Origin: Syncephalastrum monosporum B8922
Taxonomy: Eukaryota; Mucoromycota; Mucoromycetes; Mucorales; Syncephalastraceae
Direction: 5' to 3'
DNA: 64,000 nucleotides
Assembly (NCBI GenBank): GCA_000697355.1
Contig: JNEN01001248.1
Coordinates: 1-64,000, forward strand
The position numbers and the translations under genes were made by a program. Positions 1-42,910 of this stretch are shown piece after piece (within the stretch, counting starts at the first letter, position 1; each line of letters begins with the position of its first letter). The notes under the pieces were generated by a model. That model was not told where the DNA came from. It saw only the letters and a list, made by a program, of their open reading frames with translations, and did no database searches.

Positions 1-2333
1 TTGGTCTGAAACTCCTCCCGCAACATGATGGGACCATTTTTGACCTGGCCGGTGTTCGCAGCGTTATGGCAAACGTTGCGAATACACCTGATCCACTCTT
101 GTGCGTACGGATGGTCTGGGTGAGCCTCTTGGATATATTCAGAAAAGTCGTTAATGTTGACGGCGGTAGGGTGTCGAGGCATGCTGTGGATAAATGCGGT
201 CGTTAGTCAACTGAAATATGTGTCGAGATGATATGGTGTTATAAGGAACTTACCCCATATCGGCATGATGAATGACAAACACAAGGCCTGCCTGGTCGGG
301 GCCGATCCTTTGATTGAGCCATTCTTTCAAAAGAAAGAGTGCATCATTCTCGTGGACGGGTTCAGGTAGAGGAGCACGGCCATCACCATCCGTCAACCTC
401 CTGGTGAGCGCTGTTGGCCTTGCAGGAGGCATAGGCTTGCCGGAAACGATCGGTGGCTGCCCGTGCAGAAGAGGTAAGGGCTGTCCCAGGTTCTGCCTCT
501 CCATGACCCACATGGTCTCGAGCGTTTGCATGGCCTTGCTGTCACCAAAAGGGCGCGGAAATGTTGTGCGACCGTCAGGCTGTCGACACTCTTGGTTCGT
601 GCGGGCGTTGACAAGTAGAAGCCCGTCTTCTACAAACCGAAGGCGCACTCGGTCCTGGATGACGGCAGGATACTTCCTTGTCAACCACCGAGCAGAAAGA
701 TGGCAAGGGAAGCTCTGATCTCCCACCATGCGTCGAATGTATAGGCCTCCTGTTTTGCTGATCGCATACTCCGTCCCGTGCAACATCCTGTTTCCCCAAC
801 GCGCGAGATTGAGCGCCCTCAAGTTCGCTGCTCTTTGCTCGGCAGTGAGCGTGCTACGAAGGTGAGCTCCCGCCCTATCAAGTGCTTCTTGTCGCAGCTT
901 GGGATCCCTGTGCCAGTCTGTGTCATCCGTATGTGGCCGGAATCTGTTCAGGATATGGGCCAGGGGATCTTGGCCGCGTTGTTCTCGCTGCAACGATTGC
1001 CAGTCCCGCATGGCGCGAGCGCCAATGTTGGTATCTTTTGGTAGAGTCATGAGCCACTCGATCCATTCCTGCTTTTGGTCACGCGGGATATAGAGATAAT
1101 GTCGGGTCCGGTTTCTTTTGTAAAGCGAGAGTGCTTGGCGTCGCCTTTCTTGACTACCTGGCGCACCCTGCGTGAAACCATCGGACCCCATGAAACGTGA
1201 GGCTGCGAGAGAGCGAGTATGCCTTGGCTCGGCGTCGAACTGCCGGGTCGGCCGCGCTTGCTGTTCAGGCTTCCGTGTGTGTGCCGCGTTCAAAAGCCTC
1301 TTTTGCTCATCGAGCTTGGTAAAATATGCCGCGAATTTTGGATCCTCCGGGCGGCAGCGCGCATAAAGGCGCCTCACGATATCACCGTGCGTCATGTTCA
1401 GGGCCGCAGCATCCAGAATAAAATCGAGCAGATATTGGAGAACGGCAAAGGTGAGGCTCCAAGTGGCGAGCATTAAACCTCGATACTCGATCGTCCGTAT
1501 GGTATGCTTGTACCTGAAAATGTTAAAATTTGGAAGCGCCGCAAAAAAAAAAGTCAGGTACACATTGCTGACATCGTGCAAGTTGCATCATGGCTTACCC
1601 AGGGTGAAAGTGGGGAATCACAAGTGTGAGAGTGTCCCCGGGTGGATCCGTATCTTTAGCGCTGTCAAAGTACTCTTCGCCAGCATAATGCTGCAGAGTA
1701 GGAATACCGACATAATCAAGGAAGCTTGCCCTACTAAAGTTGATGCCGTTCCGATGTGCAAAGTTTGCAATAGCCAAAGATGACGGTATCGCACCAAAAG
1801 TCACCGTGACGAGAGGGCGGGCAATGGAAAGATATTGCAATAGCTGAAGCCGCGGCTCGTCTGTCACCATAAGACTGCGTGACAACCATGGCAGGACATC
1901 GACGAAGGGCAAGTGACGATCCGCCAGGTCTGCCCAGTCCTGCTGTGACACGCCTAGGGTCTGGTACATCTGTCGCACCACAACGGACGCCATCGATCCG
2001 CCATCCCAGAAAGTTGTCGTGTGCGTGTAGTCGGACAAGGTGATATCATAGCCGACGAGTACCACGGGAACGTGACCCGCGACGGTTCGGGGTAGTGACT
2101 GCCGGAAAGACGGCATCACGACGGCGGTCCGTGAAGGGGCGTTGTCCGGCTCGAGTCGCAACGCTATTCTCGGTAGCGTATCGCTGAATACTCGCCGCCC
2201 AATGTTGGTAGAATGCACGGTTTTTGTCGTCGAGTGGCTCTTCCGATTCGCCAAGACGCATAAAAACGTCCCTTGCGACCGTCGAGACGGACTGAATGCT
2301 GCTGCTCGGCTTCCAAGCGAGGTTGTCACTCAT
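1..2333 (-). pseudogene. Left copy of three-exon element gene, 5'-deleted and frameshifted
   Basis: The gene runs on the minus strand: exon 1 is 2333-1599, exon 2 is 1513-254, and exon 3 starts at 183 and leaves the window. Both intron junctions (GTAAGC and GTAAGT donors, CAG acceptors) are shared with the right copy. The reading frame now begins at an ATG at 2333 whose first residues (MSDNLAWKPSSSIQ) align to residue ~280 of the long copy, so the N-terminal region with the GIY-YIG-like stretch is gone. An extra base in an A run near 2106-2108 shifts the frame after DRRRDAVF; the right copy stays open there. Exon 2 is open through its full ~420 codons and lacks the frameshift found in the right copy. 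A TATA box precedes the new start. I infer an inactive copy; a short-form product from the new ATG would end at the frameshift. The protein family has no name I can give. Confidence 0.75.
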
Positions 2334-2392
2334 AAGAGATAGTAGGGAAAGGAATTATTAATGGACACGAGCGCTGTGCTATCGCTCACGAC

Positions 2393-2402
2393 TTTATATA
2401 TA
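2393..2402 (-). promoter_or_regulatory. TATA box of left element copy
   Basis: Read on the minus strand the sequence is TATATATAAA, about 60 bases upstream of the left copy's ATG at 2333. The right copy has the matching TATATAAA at 7007-7014 in the same relative place before its own start. This is an inference from position and motif only. Confidence 0.45.
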
Positions 2403-3022
2403 AGAGATGATAGAGATGCCTTTGTCTCCTCTAGTAGGATCAAGTATATCGGTTGCTCATTACTTGTATACTATGTCCCAAAGTGCTTTCTTTGCTCATC
2501 TATCACAGTGTCATATGAATCGTACTCGCTTTCCTTTTTCGTGTCAACGCGGCCCTTGCTGCTGTGTCCTTTAGAGTGGCATTCATGCATTACAGAGACC
2601 CACAAAAAAATTTCTCTTTTTTTTTTTTTTTTTCTCTCAGAGAGCTACACATGAATACTCCAGCATTTCAGTGAATTAACGGTGCTAGTAGCAAGCCACG
2701 ATCATCCAGCTCACGTTCATAAATATTTCCAAGTATATGCAGTGAGAGCTCATGCCTGAAAGCATAAAATGGCAGTGCAGTGAATAGTTTCTGCTTTTCG
2801 GTGGGGTTCCTGTATTACAGCCAACCAATCAAGTTTGTGCCCTATTGACGAAAATGAGGCATAGTATAATGAGCACCTTCACATGACAAGCTGCGTGTCA
2901 TAGATAAGCTGCTAATGAATCTCGATTTCTGGTGCAAGCGAATCATGATGAATATACAGTTGATACTGACATATGAAAAGGAAAAGGTATAGATAGGTAC
3001 AAGTACAGTAGCTACAAGACCA

Positions 3023-4724
3023 GTTTTTAAAGTTGACGAATACTGAAGAAGCTGGTGTTTTTGTTAATGAATATGAGAAACCTGATCCGCCAAGACCCAT
3101 AACCAGAACCTGTGAGGAAAATGGAGACGTATATTCAAAAAAGTTTATTCGACCAAATATTTCGCAGACATACAAATCAAAGAGTTGTGCATCATGATCT
3201 TGCTGGAGATATTGTTGGATAGAGCTACATAATAAAAAAATGGACGGCAATGGCATATATTTGTTGCTCATGAACCCAATCCGTGGAACGTGAAACTTTG
3301 CGATGACGCAGAACAAGATGGCAGGCTTTTTTTTTTTTTTTTTTCAATTTCCTGGGATGAGCTTGTGTTCAGGCCCCTTATTTCTTCCCTTTTCCCCGCG
3401 CTTTCGCAAACCTGATGCGCGCAAGCAGCTTCAAGGCACAGGTGCCAGCCTGTAGCGCGCTTTATTCGCAAACAACAAGCAAAACATACCTGACGTCCGT
3501 CTTGCAGCATTGGTAGGCTACAGGATCATCGCCGTTATCCTCAGTGCTATTCAAAAGACGGCTAAAGATCAAAGCATGGAGAACGGATGAGGCAAAGTGA
3601 AATGGCTGAAGAGATATAGGACTTCACATTGAGCTTACTGCTGCTGGCAACACAGAGAGACTTGGAGATTCACTGGGGCTTGACGGTCGCGGATCGAGCT
3701 ATGGCCGGGATTGGCTTCATACTCACTCGTACAGCCCTAATTGGCGCACAGCTGAACCCATTACAAGGCAGACGACGCGTTCTTGGGAAAACGCGACGTT
3801 TTCCGGATGAAAACAGGATGCCTTTTAAAACGGTCGACCACGAACCAGTGACAACCACTAAAGAGGTGATCTTGAGGTTTAACGGCGTTGAACTTGATGA
3901 AACAATGTGCCTTACACAATATAAGTCACTGAAACGCTTGCACGGCGCATCTGCTTTTTTGCGCGAAACACACTACTCGCCAGCGATGGGGCCAGTTGTC
4001 GCAAACATGTCTCATGCAGACACGGCCTGCAGCAACCTCTACAAAGTCGAGTCCGCGGACGGCAACCCTTGCGGTTCCTGGGTACACACCGACCGCCTTC
4101 GTCCGGTTCACGTCAATGACCCGCTCACAGTCTGAAGCACAAGGTAGTACCCGACCATCACACGCAACGAATGGCGCACCATCATGCATACATTCAATAC
4201 ACTTTTCTCTTTGCGACTCGAGGACGAACATCATTCTAAAGAAGGCGGTATTGTTGGGTGTTTACCCCCTTCCGCCTTTTTTCTTTTCAAACGACGTCAA
4301 ATTACTGCGCACGGCCGTACACCTGTATTTGTGAATCACTCTCAAAAAAGTATCCATGCATCTGCGACTGCGGCACCGAATACTCTTCTCTTGTCTTTGT
4401 CTCTCTCTCTCTCTGCGACCTCTTCGCTATGACTCGTATCGTTATAGTCCATTAGCCTTTTATATACTTCTTCCCTTTCCGCCAGGCAACAACCAAGTCC
4501 CATGAAAAATTGAAACAGGCGAGTAAATCTGATAAAGGGCATCTTGTCTACCCTCTACTCTTCTGTTCTCTATCACCTGGCTTTGCACCCAATAGCCAAA
4601 AGCATTGTGACAGTCTGATTGACCAATAAAGAACCGACAAAAACTTTAATCCCCGACATGCAATAAAATGCAAAATCACACATACTATTACGCCGATTTT
4701 GAGAATACCTTTACTTTCTCTTGA
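3023..4724. other. Spacer between the inverted arms, left part
   Basis: AT-rich non-coding DNA apart from the open frame at 3629-4135. It includes an 18-nt T run near 3327-3344 and a CT-rich stretch near 4405. A short minus-strand frame at 3510-3268 contains Cys-rich sequence (CFACC, CLEAAC) that could be a relic of a zinc-binding segment, but it is too short to assign. Confidence 0.4.
3629..4135 (+). pseudogene. Possible Ty3-type retroelement integrase tail relic
   Basis: An open frame of about 168 codons without a good start context. Its end (YKVESADGNPCGSWVHTDRL, followed by RPVHVND) resembles the tail that follows the integrase in Ty3/gypsy-like polyproteins, where a YKV...G...VH.DRL pattern is common. 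No catalytic integrase residues, reverse transcriptase, LTRs or frame continuation can be seen. It sits between the two inverted element arms, a region already rich in mobile DNA. It could equally be a chance open frame. Confidence 0.28.
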
Positions 4725-4797
4725 GCCCTACGTGGGGGTCGAACCCACAACCTTTGGATTAGAAGTCCAATGCGCTATCCAATTGCGCCAGCAGGGC
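4725..4797 (-). tRNA. tRNA-Arg (anticodon UCU)
   Basis: Read on the minus strand this forms a complete cloverleaf of 73 nt. The acceptor stem pairs GCCCTGC with GTAGGGC (one G-U pair), and the D arm is GCGC...GCGC. The anticodon stem TTGGA/TCCAA encloses loop CTTCTAA with anticodon TCT, and the T arm GTGGG-TTCGACC-CCCAC is intact. No intron is present in the anticodon loop. It reads AGA codons. It lies 108 bases from the MITE at 4905 and inside the spacer of the large inverted repeat. A 22-nt fragment of its 5' half recurs at 55675-55696. Confidence 0.95.
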
Positions 4798-4904
4798 CTC
4801 TCATTTTTTTGTTGAACTTGAATATAATTGTGTAATGCAGCAAAATATGTGTGCGTGCAGTGCAGAAGTTGTCTACGTCACGACCACGTGACATCGGGAT
4901 GTTA

Positions 4905-5143
4905 CAGTGTTTTGCACAAATTGGCGGGTTAAAAAACATTTTTTTTTCTTCCGCCAATGTACATCATTGGATATCGATACAATTTTGGCTGATCAGTGCA
5001 CATTTTGATTGGCCAATGCACTTTTTGGCTGAGCAGCCCAGTTTTAAAAAACGTATTGACCAATCAAAACATGCACTTGGTCAGCCAAAAGTGAATCGAT
5101 ATGCAATGATGTGCATTGGCGGAAGAATAAACGCAAAACACTG
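4905..5143. mobile_element. Tc1/mariner-type MITE, 239 bp, TA target duplication
   Basis: The ends are CAGTGTTTTGC and GCAAAACACTG, flanked on both sides by TA (4903-4904 and 5144-5145), the duplication made by Tc1/mariner transposases. The inverted repeats run inward for about 110 bases per side with some mismatches. Shared inner blocks include CTTCCGCCAATG, ATATCGAT and TTTTGATTGG. No coding capacity is present, so it is a non-autonomous element mobilised in trans. A perfect short palindrome (GTCACG...CGTGAC, about 4878-4893) lies just outside. Confidence 0.88.
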
Positions 5144-5145
5144 TA

Positions 5146-6470
5146 GTTCTCCACTCCTTCCACATGCCATTCTTTAAGGATGCAATTAATCTTGCACATG
5201 CCCACCTTTCCCTTCGTTGTCTTTAATCTCGATTTAAGGTGCACCCCACTGCATTCCTTCATCCCCTTCTATTTTCATTTGTTTTCCTTTCATTTATTTC
5301 TCTTGTATATAGATTGCTCATTAACTAACCTTGTCTTTCACTCGTCGAGCTCCTCATGAGGTCAAGAGGATAGGACAAAACTGGTGCGATGATGAGACCA
5401 AGGGCGAAGGTATAAAGGCAGAGCAATTCAAGAAAATAAGCAATAATCTATCCGATCCCATTCTATCGACTCTTTTTTAATCTTTTTTCTTATCCTTGAT
5501 TCCTTTGGGAGAAATCTTCGTGATTTATTTCGGATTGGCTTACTGCATACACGGAGTATGTGCGACGATTGTCAGTTTCATCCAAACGTGTCTGGGTATT
5601 CCCTTGCTAAAGAACCTTTCCCGGAGCCGAAGCCATCACCCATTGCACCGCACGTGTCATTTATAGGGTCGTCTCTTCTAGAAGTAAACATTTGTAAGGA
5701 TGGACTCGTATCCTCACTTTTCAGTGCACTCCCCAATATTATATCCACATAGTAGTATCCATCTTAGCTTCAGGACACATAAATAGGCTTCATTTTTTCA
5801 GCCAGAGCAGATTAGACACTAAATCCTCAAAGGCTATCAATAAAGTCCTATATCTCTTATATACACACTCAATTTCTCTCATAGCTGCTTGCAAGTTTGC
5901 TATAAGACCATTTCCAAGCCTCAAGAACAAGTCTGGTATCTGTCTCCGCTAATCCTGCATCAAGACACCATCGAAAAACACAAGTCTGCACTACTCCATT
6001 CCGACATTGTCAAACTACATTCCCAACTTTGACCCTTATAAACTCACCAGTTTATTACATTTCCGTACCTCTAATTACCTTTTATCTTTTTCCAGCCCTT
6101 TTCCACCTTCTCTTTTATATCTTTTCGTAAAGTTTTTTTTATACAAAACTTTGCTGCTGCTCATTCGACCCTTTTTTTCTATTTGACATCATCTTTTAAT
6201 GGAGGAGTTACCTCAAGAATATTTATTGTATGTGAATGTATTTTGCAGTCACGCGTATCTAAGACAGTGGCGCGCTGCGTGAGAGACATAAATGGGGAGA
6301 GTGGAACAGGGTGATTTGGTACTATAGCGAGGGGAGAGGGCTCCGCAGAGCCTGCCTATTTGACATTTCTTTACTTTTTTTATCTTCTCTGGGTAATTCT
6401 TACCCACCTTTTTGCTCCGAACCCACCTAAGTGCCTTGGAGGTATAAACATAATAACTTCGTAATGGGTA
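5146..6470. other. Gene-free spacer, right part
   Basis: AT-rich sequence with CT-rich and T-rich tracts (around 6050-6180 and 6510-6520). No reading frame has convincing composition; the longest are about 60 codons. I see no RNA gene and no terminal repeat. It ends where the right inverted arm begins. Confidence 0.5.
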
Positions 6471-9400
6471 TGGCCTTGTATCTACTTGTACCTAATATCT
6501 ATTCCTTTTCTCTCTCTCTCTCTTATACCAAGGCTTTCCTTTTCGTATGTCAGGACAGTATCAACTGTATATCCATCATGACTCGCCTGCATCAGAAATC
6601 GAGATTCATTAGCAGCTTCTCTATGACACGCAGCTTGTCATGTGAAGGTGCTCATTATACTATGCTTCATTTTTGCCAATAGGGCACGAACTTGATTGGT
6701 TGGCTGTAATACACGAACCCCACCGAAAAGCAGAAACTATCCACTGCACTGCCATTTTATGCTTTCAGGCATGAGCTCTCACTGCATATACTTGGAAATA
6801 CTTATAAACGTGAGTTGGATGATCGTGACTTGCTACTAGCACCATTAACTCACTGAACGGCTGGAGTATTCATGTGTAGCTCTCTGAGAAAAAGAAAGAG
6901 AAATTTCTTTGTGGGTCCGTGACATTATGGATAGACGAACAAAGAAAGTAATGAGCCAATAATATTCTTGATCATACTGGAGGAGACAAAGAAATCTATC
7001 ACCTCGTATATAAAGTCGCGAGCGACAGCATAGCGTTCGTGTCCTTTTTTTTGTTTCCCATTCTCACTACACTCAAAACCATTCAATTATAATGAGTCAA
7101 AATCAGGTACACGAGGATTACACGGTCATGGATCAGTATGACTTAGAGGTGTCAAATCTTCTCAATTAGCTTGCCGTGGCTGAAAGAGTGTGTGAAACAA
7201 TCCGCGCGCGCCTTCAAAGCTTTGCTATCCCTGTTGACCGCCTCGGCGAAGACGTGGTGCGCGACACGTTCTTCCACAACGGCGCGGATATCGATCGCGG
7301 CCTGCTGCCGACGATCGAAGCACTTGCGAAAGACCACACGACTATCAGCACTGAAGCCATGGAGCAAGCCCTCCCTTGGGACGAGGTAACGACAGACGCG
7401 CCAACTCGCCCGGTGATCTACATACGCACCTGGGAGATTCCTCGTGGCCTCCTCCGCCGTGTCCTCCTTGCCGTCGTCATCGAGGACATCGCCGCATCCG
7501 GTGAAGACGTCGACGTTGAGAACGATGTCTTGGACCCCGACACAGGCGCCGTTGTTTCTACCCTCCCGAGCGCTTGGGCATGGGCAGACAAAGTCCTACC
7601 GGGAAACGCAGTCATTGATCTGTGTGAAACTTTCAACGACAGTTCTGAGATTGTTTACGCTCGGTACGTCGGCCGAACCAGGGATAATCCTCGCCGTCGC
7701 CAGTTCGAAGACGAAAATCGGCCGTATGGCTACCTCAAGCGGTTCCTTGAGCTCCTTGAACGAGAGTCAAACGAAGATCAACAGGTTGTCAAACGCCTCC
7801 ATTACTTTACTGTGCCGGATGGCGACCAGCAAGAACAACTCGACTTTTACGAGCAAATGGCGATCGCGTTCTTCGGCCTGAACACGCTGATCAACCGTCA
7901 GCCAGGCGGCGAATTCATGACCTACAATCCCACTTGGGATCTGAGCAGCAGCGTTCAGTCCGTCTCGACGGTCGCAAGGGACGTTTTTATACGTCTTGGC
8001 GAATCGGAAGAGCCACTCGGCGACAAAACCCGTGCATTCTACCAACATTGGGCGGCAAGTATTCAGCGATACGCTACCGAGAATAGTGTTGCGACTCGAG
8101 CCGGACAACGCCCCTTCACTGACCGCCGTCGTGATGCCGTCTTCCGGCAGTCACTGCCCCGAACCGTCGCGGGTCACGTTCCCGCGGTACTCATCGGCTA
8201 TGAGATCACCTTGACCGACTACACGCACGCGACAACTTTCTGGGAGGGCGGCTCGAAAGCGTCCGTTGTGGTGCGACAGATGTACCAGGCCTTAGGCATA
8301 TCACAGCAGGACTGGGCAGGCCTGGCGGACCGTCACCTGCCCTTCGTCGATGTCTTGCCATGGTTGTCATTTAGTCTCATGATGACAGACGACCCGCGGC
8401 TTCAGCTATTACAGTATCTTTCCCTCGCTCGCCCGCTCGTCACGGTGACTTTTGGTGCGATACCGTCATCTTTGGCTATTGCAAACTTTGCGCACCTGAA
8501 CGGCATCAACTTTAGTAGGGGAAGCTTCCTTGATTACGTCGGTATTCCTACTCTCCAACACTATGCCGGTGAAGGATACTTTGACAGCGCTGAAGATACG
8601 GACCCACCCGGGGACAGTCTCACACTTGTGATTCCCCACTTTCACCCTGGGTAAGCAATGATGCGACTTACACGATGTCAGCACTGTGTACCTGACTCTT
8701 TTTTTTTTTGTGGCGCTTCCAAATTTTGACATTTTCAGGTACGACAAGCATACCATACAGACGACCGAGTACCGAGATTTTATGCTCGCCACGTGGAGCC
8801 TCACCTTTGCCGTTCTCCAATATCAGCTCGATTTCGTTCTGGATGCTGCGTCCCTGAACATGACGCACGGCGATATCGTGAGGCATCTTTATGCGCGCTG
8901 CCGCCCGGAGGATCCAAAATTCGCGGCCTATTTCACTAAGCTTGATGAGCAAAAGCAGCTTTTGCACATGGTCCACACACGGGAGCTTCAACAGCGAGCA
9001 CGGCCGACCCGGAACTTCGACGCCGAGCCGAGTCATACTCTCTCTCTGGCAGCTACACGTTTCATGGAGGACGATGGTTTCACGCAGGGTGCGCCAGGCA
9101 GTCAAGAAAGGCGACGTCAAGCAATCTCACTGTACAAAAGAAACCGGACCCGACATTATCTCTATATCCCGCGTGACCAAAAGCAAGAATGGATCGAGTG
9201 GCTCATGACTCTACCAAAAGATACCAACATTGGCGCTCGCTCCATGCAGGACTGGCAATCGTTGCAGCGAGAAGAACGCGGCCAAGATCCCCTGGCCCAT
9301 ATCCTGAACAGATTCCGGCCACATACGGATGACACAGACTGGCACAGGGATCCCAAGCTACGACAAGAAGCACTCGATAGGGCGGGAGTTCACCTTCGTA

Positions 9401-10254
9401 GCACCCTCACTGCAGAGCAAATAACAGCGAACTCAAGGGTGGCCAATCTCGCGCGTTGGGGAATAGGATGTTGCACGGGACGGAGTATGCGATCAGCAAC
9501 ACAGGAGGCCTATACATTCGACGCATGGTGGGAGATCAGAGCTTCCCTTGCCATCTTTCCGCCGGGTGGGTGACAAGGGAGTATCCTGCCGTCATCCGCG
9601 ACCGAGTGCGTCTTTTATTTGTAGAAGATGGGCTTCTACTTGTCAACGCCCGCACGAACCAAGAATGTCGACGGCTTGACGGGCGCACAACATTTCCGCG
9701 CCCTTTTGGTGACAGCAAGGGCATGCAAACGCTCGAGACCATGTGGGTCATGGAGAGGCAAAACCTGGGACAGCCCGTACCTCTCCTGCACGGGCAGCCA
9801 CCGATCGATGCCGGCAAGCCTATGCCTCCTGCAAGGCCAACAGCGCTCACCAGGAGGTTGACGGATGGTGATGGCCGTGCTCCTCTACCTGAACCCGTCC
9901 ACGAGAATGATGCACTCTTTCTTTTGAAAGAATGGCTCAATCAAAGGATCGGCCCCGACCAGGCAGGCCTTGTGTTTGTCATTCATCATGCCGATATGGG
10001 GTAAGTTCCTTATAACACCATATCATCTCGACACATATTTCAGTTGACTAACGACCGCATTTATCCACAGCATGCCTCGACACCCTACCGCCGTCAACAT
10101 TAACGACTTTTCTGAATATATCCAAGAGGCTCACCCAGACCATCCGTACGCACAAGAGTGGATCAGGTGTATTCGCAACGTTTGCCATAACGCTGCGAAC
10201 ACCGGCCAGGTCAAAAATGGTCCCATCATGTTGCGGGAGGAGTTTCAGACCAAG
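6471..10254 (+). repeat. Right arm of the large head-to-head inverted repeat
   Basis: This is the plus-sense partner of 1-3022. Upstream non-coding sequence (6471-7054), most of the coding region and both shared introns match the left arm in reverse complement. Inner-edge similarity begins at about 6471 (TGGCCTTGTA... against the complement of 3013-3022). The repeat very probably continues to the gene end at 10380 and beyond, but the left arm leaves the window first. Confidence 0.9.
7007..7014 (+). promoter_or_regulatory. TATA box of right element copy
   Basis: TATATAAA lies 78 bases before the ATG at 7092. The same box and its flank (AAAGTCG, with GAGCGA after it) are kept in the left arm, which suggests the element carries its own RNA polymerase II promoter. 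Confidence 0.5.
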
Positions 10255-10380
10255 AAGCGCACCATTAAGCAGCGGGACAACACAGGCAACGTAACGGGAA
10301 CAGTCAACGTGCACGACATTCAAGTTGGACCACAGAGAGGCGGCGTCGACCAAGATGAGCCTGAGAATCTATATGATTAG
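7092..10380 (+). pseudogene. Right copy of element gene: GIY-YIG-like, ~1,000-residue protein, frameshifted
   Basis: Proposed exons are 7092-7106, 7170-8650, 8740-10000 and 10071-10380. The first intron (7107-7169) is needed only to remove an in-frame TAG at 7167; otherwise translation would have to start within the long frame. The exon 8650/8740 and 10000/10071 junctions are supported by GTAAG donors, CAG acceptors and the left copy. Around residues 165-190 the stretch YARYVGRTRDNPRRRQFED followed by GYLKRFLELLE resembles the RYVG.T..P..R..ED pattern of fungal GIY-YIG-type nuclease proteins. The rest matches nothing I can name; the C-terminal exon is rich in polar residues. A one-base deletion near 9462 (GGGGAATAGG against GGGGAAACAGG in the left copy) shifts the frame in exon 3, so this copy is probably dead. 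The gene has no reverse transcriptase and no DDE transposase signature that I can see. Confidence 0.65.
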
Positions 10381-11708
10381 CCTGGCTACCACACATCGCT
10401 CCCTCTTTCCTTCCCCCTATAAAACAACATACGTCAACTAGCTGTCTTCTTTTTTCCTCTTTTTTTCTTTGTCATGATTTATTCTCCAAAAGCTTATGAA
10501 AACTATAGACATGTGTTCCTTCTTGGTGGCTCGCTGTCATAGAGCAGAATTACCAAAGATACGTGTTACAATACTAAGCGAACAGGAAAGTGCAAGGTAC
10601 GCATACTGTGTTCCACCTGAACACTGCCTGTCATTGTAGTCGATGAATGCTCTACTCACTAACTATACGAGCTTTTATGAAGATGCAAAAAATATCGCCA
10701 AGTCACATACTGATATAGCGTAATACGTTGTCACTGCAGATGCTAGCCGTATACTTTCAAAGTTGTGGTGATGTTTTATTTTCTACGGTGGGCTTTTTTA
10801 ACAATACCAAAAGTTAGACGTCCTGTACCATGAAGCTTGCACCGCAGTAATTTTAAGATGTGAGTTCCACTTCACACTCGCATCTCTGCCTTGGAGGTGG
10901 CGTGTCACCAAGAGCTCTGGTTTGAGTCTCTTACGAGAATAGCAAGGAAGATCGAAAAGAAGATCGCTTCATAAATAGTATATGAAAACTTTTGCATACA
11001 CAGCACGCAAGAGTGTTTACATAGCTCTCTCCAACGCATTTGTAGCGTAGGGTCGCTATTTAAGTTTTATGCAGTCTATGTGTACAGTCGAACAAATACT
11101 GTATGAAGCGAATGCTTCCAAAAATACACCGTTTCTATAGATCTATCGCGCAGTGTAGAGGGACATGACTGACAATAAGGAAGCAAATTAGATAGCTGCA
11201 TGCTAGCAATACATAGAGGGCAGAAAACGTAAAGATGAAGAGCGCATTACAGCATCTTGTGAGCCAGATATGACTCTCATGATCATTGTGTGTGTGTGAC
11301 CGGTCCTGATAAACAGGCGATCCAGGAGCACATGTCACCCATCTGTATCAGCAGGAAGATGTCATATTTGGTCTGCACACTCTTATTTCACGAGGTGTGT
11401 AGCGCCTTCCATTTCAGTAGTGGTTGTGGATCAAAAGAAAACAAGGTTTTGTTCACTACAGGCCGTCGCAGCACAATAATAGGCGGTTCGCGTCGCTTTC
11501 AATAGCTAAAAGCGTACATATGCTATTGGTCCTACCGCACATTTATAGAGGCGCTTTGCAGTGGAGCCGAAAATTTGCTATAATCCAGAATGTTGGTATG
11601 CAATATTCTGTCGGTAAGACAGACGTGGGCCCAAATCTTTCTTTTTTTTTTTTTTACCAACACGCTTTTGTTGTTTCTTTCTTCTCAAGTATACTTGCAG
11701 AAAAAAAA
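10381..11708. other. Gene-free stretch beyond the right element copy
   Basis: AT-rich DNA with no credible frame longer than about 70 codons. The outer end of the element should lie here, but without the left copy for comparison the boundary cannot be placed. The last few hundred bases, with a T run at 11640-11654 and a purine run just before the ATG at 11709, are probably the promoter and leader of the SR protein gene. Confidence 0.4.
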
Positions 11709-13224
11709 ATGTCATACTATCGTGATCGCCGTGATGAACCGTCTCGAAGACTCTACGTCGGTGCGTTGTTTGGTTATTCGTCGTCTTTTCCGTGGCTAAT
11801 TGACAAGCAAATTAAAAGGCAACATCGATCGCTACGTCCGCGAGCGTGATTTAGAGCGCCTTTTTGGAAGATTGGGCAGAATCGTCGATGTGGAGATCCT
11901 GGTATGCGTCAGTCACGTTTGCAGAAAAGAGTAGTCTAACGATGCCTCTGACCGTAGAGTGATTTCGGTTTTGTTGAATACGATGTACGTCACTGCAACA
12001 AGTACCAAGAGAACAGCAGACTGATTTATTTTCTCGATAGGACATACGCGGTTCGTTTCCCCCTCCCCTTCTTTCTTTCATAGCTATGCTGGTGTGCGCG
12101 CGGTGATGGAGACGGAGCAAACAGAAGAAAAAGAAAATCTACGGAGAGAGAGAAAACGAGAAAAAGATACGTTTCTCGGTGCATGGTTCTTGTCTTTGCT
12201 CGCTCGTCCTTGCCCCACTCAGCACTCGCTTCTTTGGTAAAAAAACAGTCTCTTAACCTTACCATTTTCTACGCTCCACCTCCCGTTTCACTTGTTTATA
12301 CAGATGCCGAAGACGCCGTTAGAGACTTTGACGGATACCGCCTCGAAGGAGCCCGCCTTCGAGTACGTCATCAAAATATTGATTCACAATGCGGCATCTC
12401 ACCCGCACCCACTGTAGGTTGAATTTGCCAAAAACCGTCGCCGTGGGGGTCCTCCCGGTGGTGGTAGTGGTGATGGCGGCTACGGAGGCCGCCCCCGCCG
12501 TGGCGACAAGATGGGCGGCGGCGGTGAACGATGCTACAACTGTGGTGAATTCGGTAAATCACGACAGCCTTCATATAGTCGGATAGACTCATTTCTTTTT
12601 TTCTTTCTTTCTAGGACACATGTAAGGGTATTTTGTACTTGTAAAATTCCTGGTGATACTGATTCGTGGTCGACTTAATGCACCTCAATAGTTCTCGAGA
12701 ATGGTATGCATATATCACTGATTTATTCAGACATAGCCCAGGCTAACGCCCCTTTTTTCGTTCTTTCTTTCTTAGTTCGGTACCTAGAGGAAGGTAAAAG
12801 TGAATCAAGACGTAGTGTTTGCATGTATCTGACGCCATGTCCTTGTACAGTGGTGAGCGTGCAATGCGTTTTGAAGAGAATCGCTGCTTGTAAGTGGTCT
12901 GCTTAATGGTGTGTGTGATGGGTACTAATATAAACCTTCCAGTGAGTGTGGCGAAGCCGGCCACAGAGCACGCGATTGCCCGTAAGTTGTCAAAAATGAA
13001 GAAAAAACTAAACGAAAAAAAAAAAGATATGCTCACAAATGATACGTTTTGAAAAAAAAAGCGGCCGTGGTGCTGGGCGCGCGCGTTCGCGTTCTCCTGT
13101 AGGTCGAGGACGGTCGGCCTCTCCCGTCGCGGCTCGGAGTCCACCTAGAGATTACCCGCGCGACAACTTTTCAGGCGACCGAGAGGACCGTGGTCGCTAC
13201 GATGAGGACGAAGGATACTACTAG
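11709..13224 (+). CDS. SR-type splicing factor: RRM, Gly-rich, two CCHC zinc knuckles, RS tail
   Basis: Proposed exons: 11709-11760, 11819-11901, 11958-11988, 12304-12362, 12418-12553, 12615-12621, 12692-12703, 12776-12793, 12851-12889, 12943-12981 and 13062-13224, giving 212 residues. An N-terminal RRM begins RRLYVGNIDRYVRERDLERL and contains the RNP1-like core FGFVEY. A glycine-rich linker follows. The first knuckle (CYNCGEFGH...C) is assembled only when three tiny exons of 7, 12 and 18 nt are included; the second is CFECGEAGHRARDC. The tail holds RS/SP dipeptides and an acidic tyrosine-rich end. The order RRM, two knuckles, RS is that of plant RS2Z-type SR proteins. Members bind exonic enhancers and act in the nucleus in spliceosome assembly. 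The exon 3 donor is uncertain: only a weak GTCACT site at 11989 keeps the frame, although a better GTACGT lies 4 bases earlier. The intron before exon 10 has a perfect TACTAAT branch site. Confidence 0.82.
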
Positions 13225-13691
13225 GCATAGCGCACAGAAGCAAACAAAAAGAGAGCAAATAAGCGCAGCGGGTAATTTATCATGACTTGCGAATGGCATG
13301 GATAGTATACAGTGATGTGGTGGGCAATTTTCTGGCAAGTTGACACAGAAATTAAACAACAAAAACACATATATAAAAAAAAAGGACATGATTTATCAAA
13401 AAAAAAAAAAATGCCTTCAATTATTTTTCTCCGTGATGATGCCTAAAGTTTACATTCTTCTATTACATAGGTTAATTACGTGCTACGTGACACGTATCAT
13501 AAGTGGATGTCGAAAGCAGCAAGGACGCTTTGCATTGTTTCTCTATAGGGAAAACTGGAGCGGCTAGGGCGTGATATCCCTCCTGTGTCACTTGGTGCTC
13601 TGGCGAATCCTTGAGTATGGGATGAAACTGGCAGACAGGAATGCTATACAGGAAACAAACACCACCGGGTAGATATCCTGGGCGACGGTGG
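13225..13691. other. Intergenic region between SR gene and secreted-protein gene
   Basis: The first half is the 3' end of the SR gene with A-rich runs near 13374-13411. The second half leads into the TATA box at 13692. No frame looks coding. Confidence 0.5.
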
Positions 13692-13700
13692 TATAAAATA
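13692..13700 (+). promoter_or_regulatory. TATA box upstream of secreted-protein gene
   Basis: TATAAAATA lies 52 bases before the first ATG at 13752, a strong match to the eukaryotic TATA consensus and a sign of a regulated or highly expressed gene. Confidence 0.6.
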
Positions 13701-13751
13701 AGCCCGAACAACCTTTATTCACGTAACCAACATCCACTTGTCTATCAATAT

Positions 13752-14092
13752 ATGATGTTGCGCTTTGCTATCCTGCTTTGCACTGCCGCTGCCGCTGCTC
13801 TGATGGCTTCCGCCGCTCCCATTGATATCAACAACGACGGTGGCTCGGTTTCCAAAGAATCGTTGGGTCAAGGCAGCAGTGACTCTTCCGTGGATACCCA
13901 GATCTTGAGTGATCCTAGCAAGCCTGATCAGATACAACCACAAGTGATCAAGGAAAAAGCTGACCTCTCTGACCGTATGTTAAAAGACGAATCTATAATG
14001 ACACGAAGATGGAACATTCATACTTTTACATCATAGTGTTTGACCGTCTCGACATGGACAAGCTCGGTGGTGACATGGAAGGTGACTTTTGA
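13752..14092 (+). CDS. Small secreted protein of unknown function
   Basis: Two exons, 13752-13974 and 14037-14092, joined over a 62-base GT-AG intron, give 92 residues. The N terminus (MMLRFAILLC, then an Ala-rich core ending in ASAAP) is a clear signal peptide with likely cleavage after SAA around residue 22. The mature part is acidic and Ser/Asp-rich with no cysteine pairs, and ends LDMDKLGGDMEGDF. No known domain is recognised. The stop at 14090 separates it from the next gene; I considered joining the two, but the next gene has its own ATG and a different frame. The TATA box at 13692 serves it. Confidence 0.65.
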
Positions 14093-40829: not shown

Positions 40830-42910
40830 ATGAGAGAAATCATTCACGTTCAAGCTGGTACGTATTCCTTCTTCCCGTTCGGATAAAGCGAGACGTGTTC
40901 TTTCGTCTTTTCCTCTTCGCTGCGTTGTTTTTACAAGAACGCGTTGCGAAAAAGGCTTTATTTTGCGGCCACATGTCGACCCGACCGGATTCCCTTCCGG
41001 ACCATATTCAAACCCAGTTGACTGACACACGCCCTTTTTTTTTTCTCGGTTCCGAAATAGGTCAATGTGGCAATCAGGCATGTTACCTGCGCGGCACACC
41101 CTTTGTCAATCCGGGTCAGAGTGGGAGAAAGAGAAAAAGACCGAGAAGAAGAAGAGGTGTTGGGTGTGCGTGGGCACGCGGTGGTGGGCTGCTTGTCATG
41201 TATGACGCGCTTTGGCGTGCGTTCGGTTTTGTGCATACACGCATGCGCGGAGTGTGTGTGGATGCATGACTCGACACACGTAGATACGCGTAGAAAAAAA
41301 GAGAAGAGAAGAGAGCAAGTGAGTGGAAACGGTGACTCTGATGGAGGAGCAGGAGCAGGAGAACTAGAGTTTCGAGGAGGCCGAGGAGGTGCTGGAGGGG
41401 AAATAACCTCAAGGAAAGCTGCAGGTTTCTGCTCGGGGACCCCTGGGATTTTTTTTTCTTTGCTCTTGTCAGGTTTTTGCTTACGCCTCATCGCATGAAT
41501 GTATAGATTGGTCAGAAGTTCTGGGAGAACATCAGCCAGGAGCACGGCATTGACGGATCGGGTGCGTACGTCGGTGATAATGATCTTCAGCTAGAGCGCA
41601 TCAATGTCTATTACAACGAAGGATCCAAGGGCAAATACGTGCCGAGGTAAGGACAGAAAGCAGAAACAAGAAAAAAAAAAAATTCTTCATGCATGCGCAT
41701 GCAGCTTGGTTTCGTGAAATTCATGCATGACTCTAGAGCCGTCCTCGTGGATCTGGAGCCTGCCACGATGGATGCGATCCGTGGCAGTACGTACGGCAAG
41801 CTCTTCCGGCCGGACAACTTTGTCTTCGGCCAGAGCGGCGCGGGCAATTCGTGGGCTAAAGGTTACTACACCGAAGGCGCCGAGCTGGTCGAGTCGGTGC
41901 TGGACATCATCCGCAAGGAGGCTGAGCACACCGACTGTCTTCAGGGCTTCCAGCTCGCGCACTCGCTCGGTGGTGGTACGGGCTCGGGCATGGGCTCGCT
42001 TCTGCTTTCCAAGATCCGCGAGGAGTACCCCGACCGCATGCTGTGCACCTACTCGGTCGTGCCGTCGCCTAAGGTTTCAGATACCGTCGTCGAGCCCTAC
42101 AACGCTGTGCTGTCGGTGCATCAGCTCGTCGAGAACTGCGATGCCACGTTCTGCATTGACAACGAGGCACTCTATGACATTTGCTTCCGCACCCTCAAGC
42201 TGTCCAACCCTGGCTACGGCGAGCTGAACCAGCTCGTGTCCGCTGTCATGTCGGGTGTTTCGACGAGCTTGCGCTTCCCCGGTCAGCTCAACTCGGACCT
42301 GCGCAAGTTGTTCGTCAACATGGTGCCCTTCCCGCGTCTCCACTTCTTCATGGTCGGCTTTGCGCCCCTGACTGCGTTCAACTCGCAGCAGTACCGCAAC
42401 CTGAGCGTGCCTGAGCTGACGGCGCAAATGTTTGATGCGCGAAACATGATGGCCGCGTCGGACCCCCGCCACGGCCGGTACTTGACGGTGTCAACCTTGT
42501 TCCGCGGCAAGCTCTCGACCAAGGAAGTGGAGAACCAGATGCTGGCAGTGCAGCAAAAGAATTCGTCTTACTTTGTTGAGTGGATACCCAACAGCGTCAA
42601 GACGTCGCTATGTGACATCCCGCCTGTTGGGCTCAAGATGGCCGGTACATTTATCGGCAACAGCACTGCGATCCAGGAGCTATTTAAGCGCGTCAACGAG
42701 CAGTTCACTGCCATGTTCCGGCGCAAAGCCTTCATCCACTGGTACACCGGCGAAGGCATGGACGAAATGGAGTTCACCGAAGCCGAATCCAACATGAACG
42801 ATCTCGTGTCCGAGTACCAGCAGTACCAGGAAGCCACCGCGGACGAGGAGTTGATGGAGGATGATGAGGAATACCTCGAAGACGAGGAGGAGGAGGAGCC
42901 AGTAGAGTAA
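40830..42910 (+). CDS. Beta-tubulin
   Basis: Exons 40830-40857 (28 nt), 41061-41077 (17 nt), 41507-41646 and 41737-42910 give 452 residues. The tubulin signature GGGTGSG is at 140-146; MREI autoregulation start, GTP-binding loops and an acidic Glu-rich tail are all present. It forms alpha/beta dimers and microtubules. Counting from Met1, residue 167 is Tyr (canonical Phe) and residue 198 is Ala (canonical Glu), both positions where these exact changes confer benzimidazole resistance in other fungi. Cys239 is Ser, as in budding yeast. Intron 2 is unusually long (429 bases) and begins with GC (CAG/GCATGT); exon 2 is a micro-exon that completes QCGNQ. Acceptors are ATAG, ATAG and CTAG. Confidence 0.96.

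Follow-up and report, generated by a model that had tools for sequence, protein, structure and literature searches.

An inverted pair of genes in Syncephalastrum monosporum: candidate members of a decaying multi-copy family with a probable GIY-YIG-like domain

Near the start of contig JNEN01001248.1 of Syncephalastrum monosporum B8922 (GCA_000697355.1), two related genes lie head-to-head in an inverted repeat, and a preliminary description of this DNA raised the question of whether they are copies of a mobile element not yet described, equipped with a GIY-YIG-like endonuclease that could drive insertion, or members of a gene family amplified by segmental duplication. The window analysed here is the first 64 kb of that contig (C171 in what follows; 100,109 bases), and the genome searched comprises 27.5 Mb in 198 contigs. 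We propose, with moderate confidence, that the inverted pair belongs to a nuclear gene family, multi-copy and fast-evolving, that carries a divergent GIY-YIG-like domain and has spread by segmental duplication.

Two unequal copies on the arms of a palindrome

Positions 1–2,984 and 6,535–10,253 of the window are inverted arms whose main blocks, in a comparison within positions 1–14000, are 91–97% complementary (1–796 with 9458–10253, 792–1511 with 8744–9463, 1543–2107 with 8142–8706, 2107–2333 with 7917–8143 and 2621–2968 with 6556–6903). Blocks of 200–800 bases at this level of identity are far beyond chance by length alone. Each arm holds one member of the gene family, with the 5' ends facing each other, and introns and upstream regions fall inside both arms, as had been described. 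The inverted pair is real, but the length of more than 3 kb first given to the repeat has to be qualified: the aligned arms total about 2.8 kb inside the window, and about 3.4 kb only when a second contig, C24, is counted in.

The right copy (7092–10380, + strand) has four exons and not three, as initially counted, the first of them being only 15 nt long (7092–7106, encoding MSQNQ from an ATG). Its intron runs from a GT donor at 7107 to an AG acceptor at 7169, and the paralogue on contig C163 has a matching start and the same intron 1. Exon 2 (7170–8650, about 494 codons) lies in the open frame 7170–8654, ends at a GT donor at 8651 and carries the GIY-YIG-like domain; exon 3 (8739–10000) follows an AG acceptor at 8737–8738 and precedes a GT donor at 10001–10002; exon 4 (10071–10380, stop codon TAG at 10378–10380) aligns with the C-terminus of a Syncephalastrum racemosum protein (P0003). 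All introns are GT-AG. The gene extends over about 1,022 codons; its single frameshift, near 9,460 in exon 3, falls between the open reading frames (ORFs) 8662–9573 and 9402–10004, a place where the left copy differs. Because of this break the summed exon length, 3,068 nt, is not divisible by three.

The left copy (2336 to 1, − strand) shares intron 2 with the right one and is cut off by the contig end at base 1, inside exon 4. Its upstream region is kept to about 45 bases before the start, where the sequence jumps to about residue 249; missing in between are exon 1, intron 1 and about 249 codons, among them those for the putative nuclease domain. What remains is a piece of exon 2 (1599–2336) with a frame change near 2103–2110, an open exon 3 (254–1513, in ORF 250–1587, with the intron at 1514–1598), whose end was placed as the mirror of 10000 in an identical tract, and the start of exon 4 (1–183), placed as the mirror of 10071, the remainder of which lies on C24, provided that both contigs belong to one locus. 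Two gene copies are thus present and inverted, but they are unequal, the right one frameshifted and the left one truncated. A full-length family member encodes about 990–1,020 residues, with an N-terminal stretch, the GIY-YIG-like domain and about 750 residues to which no fold is assigned.

The first 10,253 bases of C24 and C171 are exactly identical and in the same orientation. Beyond this core the contigs diverge and yet remain homologous to about 10,885, with 91% identity over the first 100 bases and a lower, gapped similarity over the next few hundred. In our reading, C24 and C171 are opposite sides of a single palindromic locus: the outermost bases of the left arm (1–443, unstranded) are identical to those of the right arm (9811–10253, unstranded), at whose edge the two contigs part, and an assembler unable to cross this 443-base tract would have written the core twice, with one outer flank each. 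The same arrangement may alternatively reflect two separate identical 10-kb duplications. Such a structure also invites the suspicion that the palindrome was created by the assembly, through the folding back of one copy or the joining of two haplotypes, since the window contig begins exactly at the outer edge of an arm, C24 opens with the same 10,253 bases, and contig C181 likewise begins at the edge of an inverted repeat. We consider this extremely improbable. The arms differ by about 7–8%, with different deletions and frame breaks, and they enclose a 3.5-kb non-inverted spacer that holds a tRNA gene; C24 and C171 moreover differ past 10,253 while staying homologous. Two real copies therefore exist. 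The identical tract accounts for the start of the contig only, and not for the existence of two copies.

Identity between the arms is 100% over the outermost 443 bases, 94% in the next 100-base blocks inward, about 92–93% further in and about 93% over the whole arm. An identical tract between neighbouring stretches that are roughly 91–94% identical suggests that the arms of the palindrome exchange sequence by gene conversion.

Resemblance of the exon-2 domain to GIY-YIG nucleases

The RYVG-type stretch that first drew attention to this gene, RYVGRTRDNPRRRQFED, is present in the sequence. It lies in a domain formed by exon-2 residues 77–255 of the right copy (7398–7934, + strand), in which a VIYIRT strand is followed by an insertion of about 70 residues, a YARYVGRT strand, R177, an RLHYF strand, E228, N242 and GG. 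The key positions of GIY-YIG enzymes would be Y84, Y166-V-G168, R177, E228 and N242, with Ile at +4 and Asn242 at +14 from Glu228, directly before the GG. Y84 and Y166-V-G-x-T are invariant in our alignment A2 of six members. The family member with an open frame, on contig C142, aligns with the right copy at every motif position, the Arg included; in the very divergent C150 member, YAG, Glu, Ile, Asn and GG are aligned, the Arg is one column off and Phe stands for the first Tyr; the C76 member is without the Arg. The Tyr, YIG, Arg, Glu, Asn pattern of the superfamily is therefore found complete in the right copy and in the C142 member.

Canonical GIY-YIG domains have a three-stranded sheet, in the order strand, strand, helix, strand, helix. 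An AlphaFold model of 152 residues of the C142 protein, built from 9 sequences, has a strand at 11–21, two helices, a strand at 57–66, helices, a strand at 104–112 and a helix at 117–132, that is, the GIY-YIG order, with two additional helices inserted after strand 1 and before strand 2; its mean pLDDT (predicted local distance difference test) is 66 and its pTM (predicted template modelling score) 0.61. The limits of the modelled piece were chosen around the motif, and the fold search itself was blind to it. Compared by Foldseek with predicted viral structures (BFVD), the model gave 430 matches at E <= 10, of which 50 were listed. Among these 50, nine are called 'uncharacterized', 22 are nameless and 19 carry a functional name: eight GIY-YIG proteins, five group I intron or intron-associated endonucleases, two unspecified endonucleases and four others. 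The E-values are weak (all >= 0.04), with probabilities up to 0.93.

Several results weigh against a GIY-YIG assignment. The PF01541 profile found no candidate in the whole genome, and the same search was positive in 12 of 14 control genomes; a sequence-profile search of the PDB returned nothing relevant; fold comparisons with the PDB were without significant match, their top rows being other small alpha/beta proteins (Z <= 3.4); HHalign against 10 enterobacterial GIY-YIG domains was insignificant; and the richness of the listed BFVD matches in GIY-YIG proteins has no base rate with which it could be compared. These same points, the lack of support from sequence profiles, the weakness of the predicted models and the nature of the best PDB rows, would be expected if this were an ordinary fast-evolving fungal gene family with a different fold, whose RYVG.T stretch resembles GIY-YIG by coincidence. 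Such a coincidence is in our opinion distinctly unlikely, because 13 of the 19 named viral matches among the 50 listed are GIY-YIG or group I intron endonucleases, to which the two unspecified endonucleases may be added, and because, besides the YVG motif, the Glu and Asn positions match across the right copy, C142 and C150. The resemblance noted at the outset thus holds for the residue pattern, the strand and helix order and the viral-model matches, but not for the sequence-profile tests, and GIY-YIG ancestry of the domain appears quite likely from its residues and its modelled fold. From the domain alone we would infer that the family protein cuts DNA or RNA.

Spread and decay of the family

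Protein searches of the S. monosporum genome returned 21, 7 and 26 match rows, with several rows per copy, and the counts are to be read as lower bounds. They place at least some ten additional copies or gene fragments on C163, C181, C142 (two), C122, C76, C49, C94, C183 and C150/C158; since the overlapping sequences of C150 and C158 agree at 9,882 of 9,887 bases, these two may represent one copy. Among the copies found, only C142:9520–12492 (991 residues) is an unbroken full-length frame. Where the three introns of the right copy would align, this frame continues without a break, and C150 reads straight across the position of intron 2. Just behind the open member, a partial inverted partner (C142 3734–5823 and 7653–9116) makes up a second inverted pair of the family. 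On C181, a family copy is enclosed by an inverted repeat (1–612 and 5450–6061, 99.7% identical, no third genomic place reported) that begins exactly at the contig end, as the window does. A 193-base segment is identical, in opposite orientation, between C163 (9489–9681) and C76 (7434–7626), near the ends of these two family-bearing contigs.

Outside this genome, the best relative is the S. racemosum hypothetical protein BCR43DRAFT_498897 (P0003), 56% identical to exon 3 of the left copy (E 7.5e-107, 75% of the query covered) in an alignment that extends through exon 4. Unlike the family, it is annotated with 414 residues, without the N-terminal half and the putative nuclease domain, and no function is given for it. 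The other database relatives are two short fragments on separate contigs of 1,941 bases each. The 991-residue C142 protein had no match at E 0.001 among 7,121 candidates, and no family relative was found with it in phage and viral protein collections.

The ratio of nonsynonymous to synonymous substitution rates (dN/dS) is 0.26 and 0.52 in exon 2 and 0.42 and 0.41 in exon 3 between the right and left copies, 0.43 and 0.33 in exon 2 and 0.26 and 0.31 in exon 3 between the right copy and C163, 0.28 between the right copy and C181 and 0.23 between C142 and C122. Values of 0.23–0.52 in most pairs, versus 0.77 and 1.01 in the broken pair C76/C49, indicate purifying selection in most of the pairs compared and suggest that the protein was constrained until the copies died. 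Between the right copy and C163, dS is about 0.25–0.27 in exon 2 and about 0.9–1.3 in exon 3, so that one of the two is a mosaic.

If the family were a mobile element, its copies should have ends in common, and none common to all copies were found: the boundaries vary among the pairs compared. Homology between the right and left copies extends to about −560 upstream and to about 500 bases beyond the stop; the upstream limit is about −620 for the right copy and C163, beyond −1,100 for the left copy and C163, about −790 for the C142 member and its inverted partner, and about −300 for C76 and C49, counted from the first Met in frame in C76, with the C49 end lying inside the coding sequence. Inspection of five junctions by eye revealed neither a target duplication nor a terminal repeat. 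No Pfam match to reverse transcriptase, DDE, tyrosine-recombinase or Rep domains turned up in the exons and ORFs that were scanned, in agreement with the absence of reverse transcriptase and DDE/tyrosine-recombinase signatures noted earlier. Scanned against Rfam at gathering scores, the window gave one tRNA only and no self-splicing intron, although divergent introns could escape this search.

The upstream region of the left copy (2360–3491, − strand) is 82% identical to that of the C163 paralogue; the upstream region of the right copy (6471–7091, + strand) is partly common to both. The homology between the left copy and C163 covers about 1.1 kb (window 2363–3491, C163 to 8290) and reaches into a decayed pseudogene fragment of a gamma-butyrobetaine/trimethyllysine-type dioxygenase (3399–4075, + strand). 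An open relative of this host gene (C24:10986–12254; TauD E 3.8e-38, GBBH-like_N 2.2e-20, PDB gamma-butyrobetaine dioxygenase E 1e-45) lies tail-to-tail with the family copy of C24, about 600 bases from the stop of the latter. The fragment on C163 is weak as protein (E 0.023) and clearer as DNA when compared with C24 (74%, 105 columns, E 8e-12). For the left copy and C163, and for this pair only, homology therefore continues past the gene into an unrelated flank. Flanking homology without discrete ends, named beforehand as a finding that would speak against an element, is thus largely present, within the limits of this one pair. As the duplicated unit spans the family gene plus part of an unrelated host gene, segmental duplication is favoured, although the dioxygenase fragment may instead have been captured by an element.

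That the window shows two inserted and now damaged copies of a mobile element not yet described, with the GIY-YIG endonuclease making the break for insertion, is for these reasons unlikely. Some properties of the family do fit such an element: copies are spread over many contigs, C76 and C49 have 2.77 kb in common at 94.7% with sharp boundaries, the C142 frame is intron-free at the aligned positions, as in a processed copy, the protein is under constraint, and repeats and retroelement or transposase remnants occur near some copies. Against it stand upstream limits that vary with the pair, from about 300 through 560–620 and 790 to over 1,100 bases ahead of the start, a C49 copy that stops inside the coding region, the junctions that show neither target duplication nor terminal repeat by eye, the homology of the left copy and C163 into a host-gene fragment, and the low copy number. 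Of the two origins first proposed, a multigene family amplified by segmental duplication fits better than a mobile element.

We therefore keep the segmentally duplicated family as the preferred explanation. An active parent resembling C142 would encode the nuclease, and copies would arise as repeat-rich regions undergo segmental duplication and recombine ectopically, as suggested by flanks that extend past the gene, variable break points and one mosaic paralogue. Inverted neighbours would then trade tracts by gene conversion, and most copies would lose their frame, a decay that the copies themselves display. A bolder proposal, which we regard as quite improbable, is that Mucorales harbour a selfish nuclear gene of a new class. 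Such a gene would encode a large GIY-YIG protein, lack element ends, and have its own copies serve as templates for the repair of the breaks that the protein makes. It would spread by homing-like gene conversion and break-induced segmental copying, which would account for palindromes with conversion tracts, mosaic paralogues, varied break points, dragged host-gene fragments and many dead copies beside one open one. Should the domain prove to be a genuine GIY-YIG nuclease, the standard profile has missed a nuclear family of large proteins encoded by several exons, and comparable families in early-diverging fungi may have gone unnoticed as well; should the nuclease also promote its own copying, the gene would be selfish without any need of transposon ends. 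Failing both, the locus is still a clear case of an orphan fungal gene family that expands and decays through inverted segmental duplication.

Further features of the window lie in the spacer between the two copies and outside the arms. The spacer contains a tRNA-Arg gene (anticodon TCT, 4723–4797, − strand), a 54-base imperfect inverted repeat (4942–5131, 89%, with an 82-base loop) that resembles a small non-autonomous element, and a dispersed repeat (5692–6453, unstranded) with an interruption of about 160 bases, which has matches of about 73–90% identity on more than 20 other contigs and is also found just 3' of the C76 family copy. Outside the arms, the ordinary-looking neighbours include an ORF identified by eye as beta-tubulin-like (41651–42910, + strand) and a GDP-fucose O-fucosyltransferase domain (PF10250; 33182–34348, − strand).

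Comparison with known GIY-YIG systems

The family resembles the GIY-YIG superfamily (UvrC, YhbQ and group I intron homing endonucleases; PF01541) in its modelled strand and helix order, in YVG-x-T and in the BFVD structural matches, without a match to the superfamily profile. It also has Arg, Glu, Ile and Asn positions in common with the sequences that we fetched, whose UvrC and YhbQ labels were given by eye except for E. coli yhbQ. The Arg lies 9 residues after the Gly in the family and 8 in UvrC-type sequences; from the Glu, the Ile is at +4 in both and the Asn at +14 in the family and +12 in the UvrC type. Among the differences, Glu-Asp takes the place of the His/Tyr of the fetched relatives, and strands 1 and 2 are separated by an insertion, which sets the two Tyr residues 82 positions apart in the right copy and 46 in C142, against about 21 (counted from the Phe) in C150. 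Its domain is fused to about 750 unassigned residues, in a nuclear gene with GT-AG introns.

In the literature covered, which was partial and mostly outside subscription journals, no title on GIY-YIG in Mucorales, fungi or mobile elements or on Syncephalastrum genomes describes such a family, and publications on GIY-YIG and Mucorales concern, by title, mostly mitochondrial genomes, introns or plasmids. Two eukaryotic systems invite comparison. Penelope-like elements have a GIY-YIG endonuclease, and GIY-YIG-like endonucleases are associated with terminons (PMC6431247); like the present family, they place a GIY-YIG-type domain in a eukaryotic nuclear genome and in repeat-rich surroundings, whereas here the exons scanned contain no reverse transcriptase and no element structure is seen. 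In Ustilago maydis, UMAG_11064 is a nuclear copy of a mitochondrial GIY-YIG homing endonuclease and is described as a single insertion of a mitochondrial gene (PMC7593156). Both are GIY-YIG-type sequences in a fungal nuclear genome, but the family described here is diverged, multi-copy and intron-bearing.

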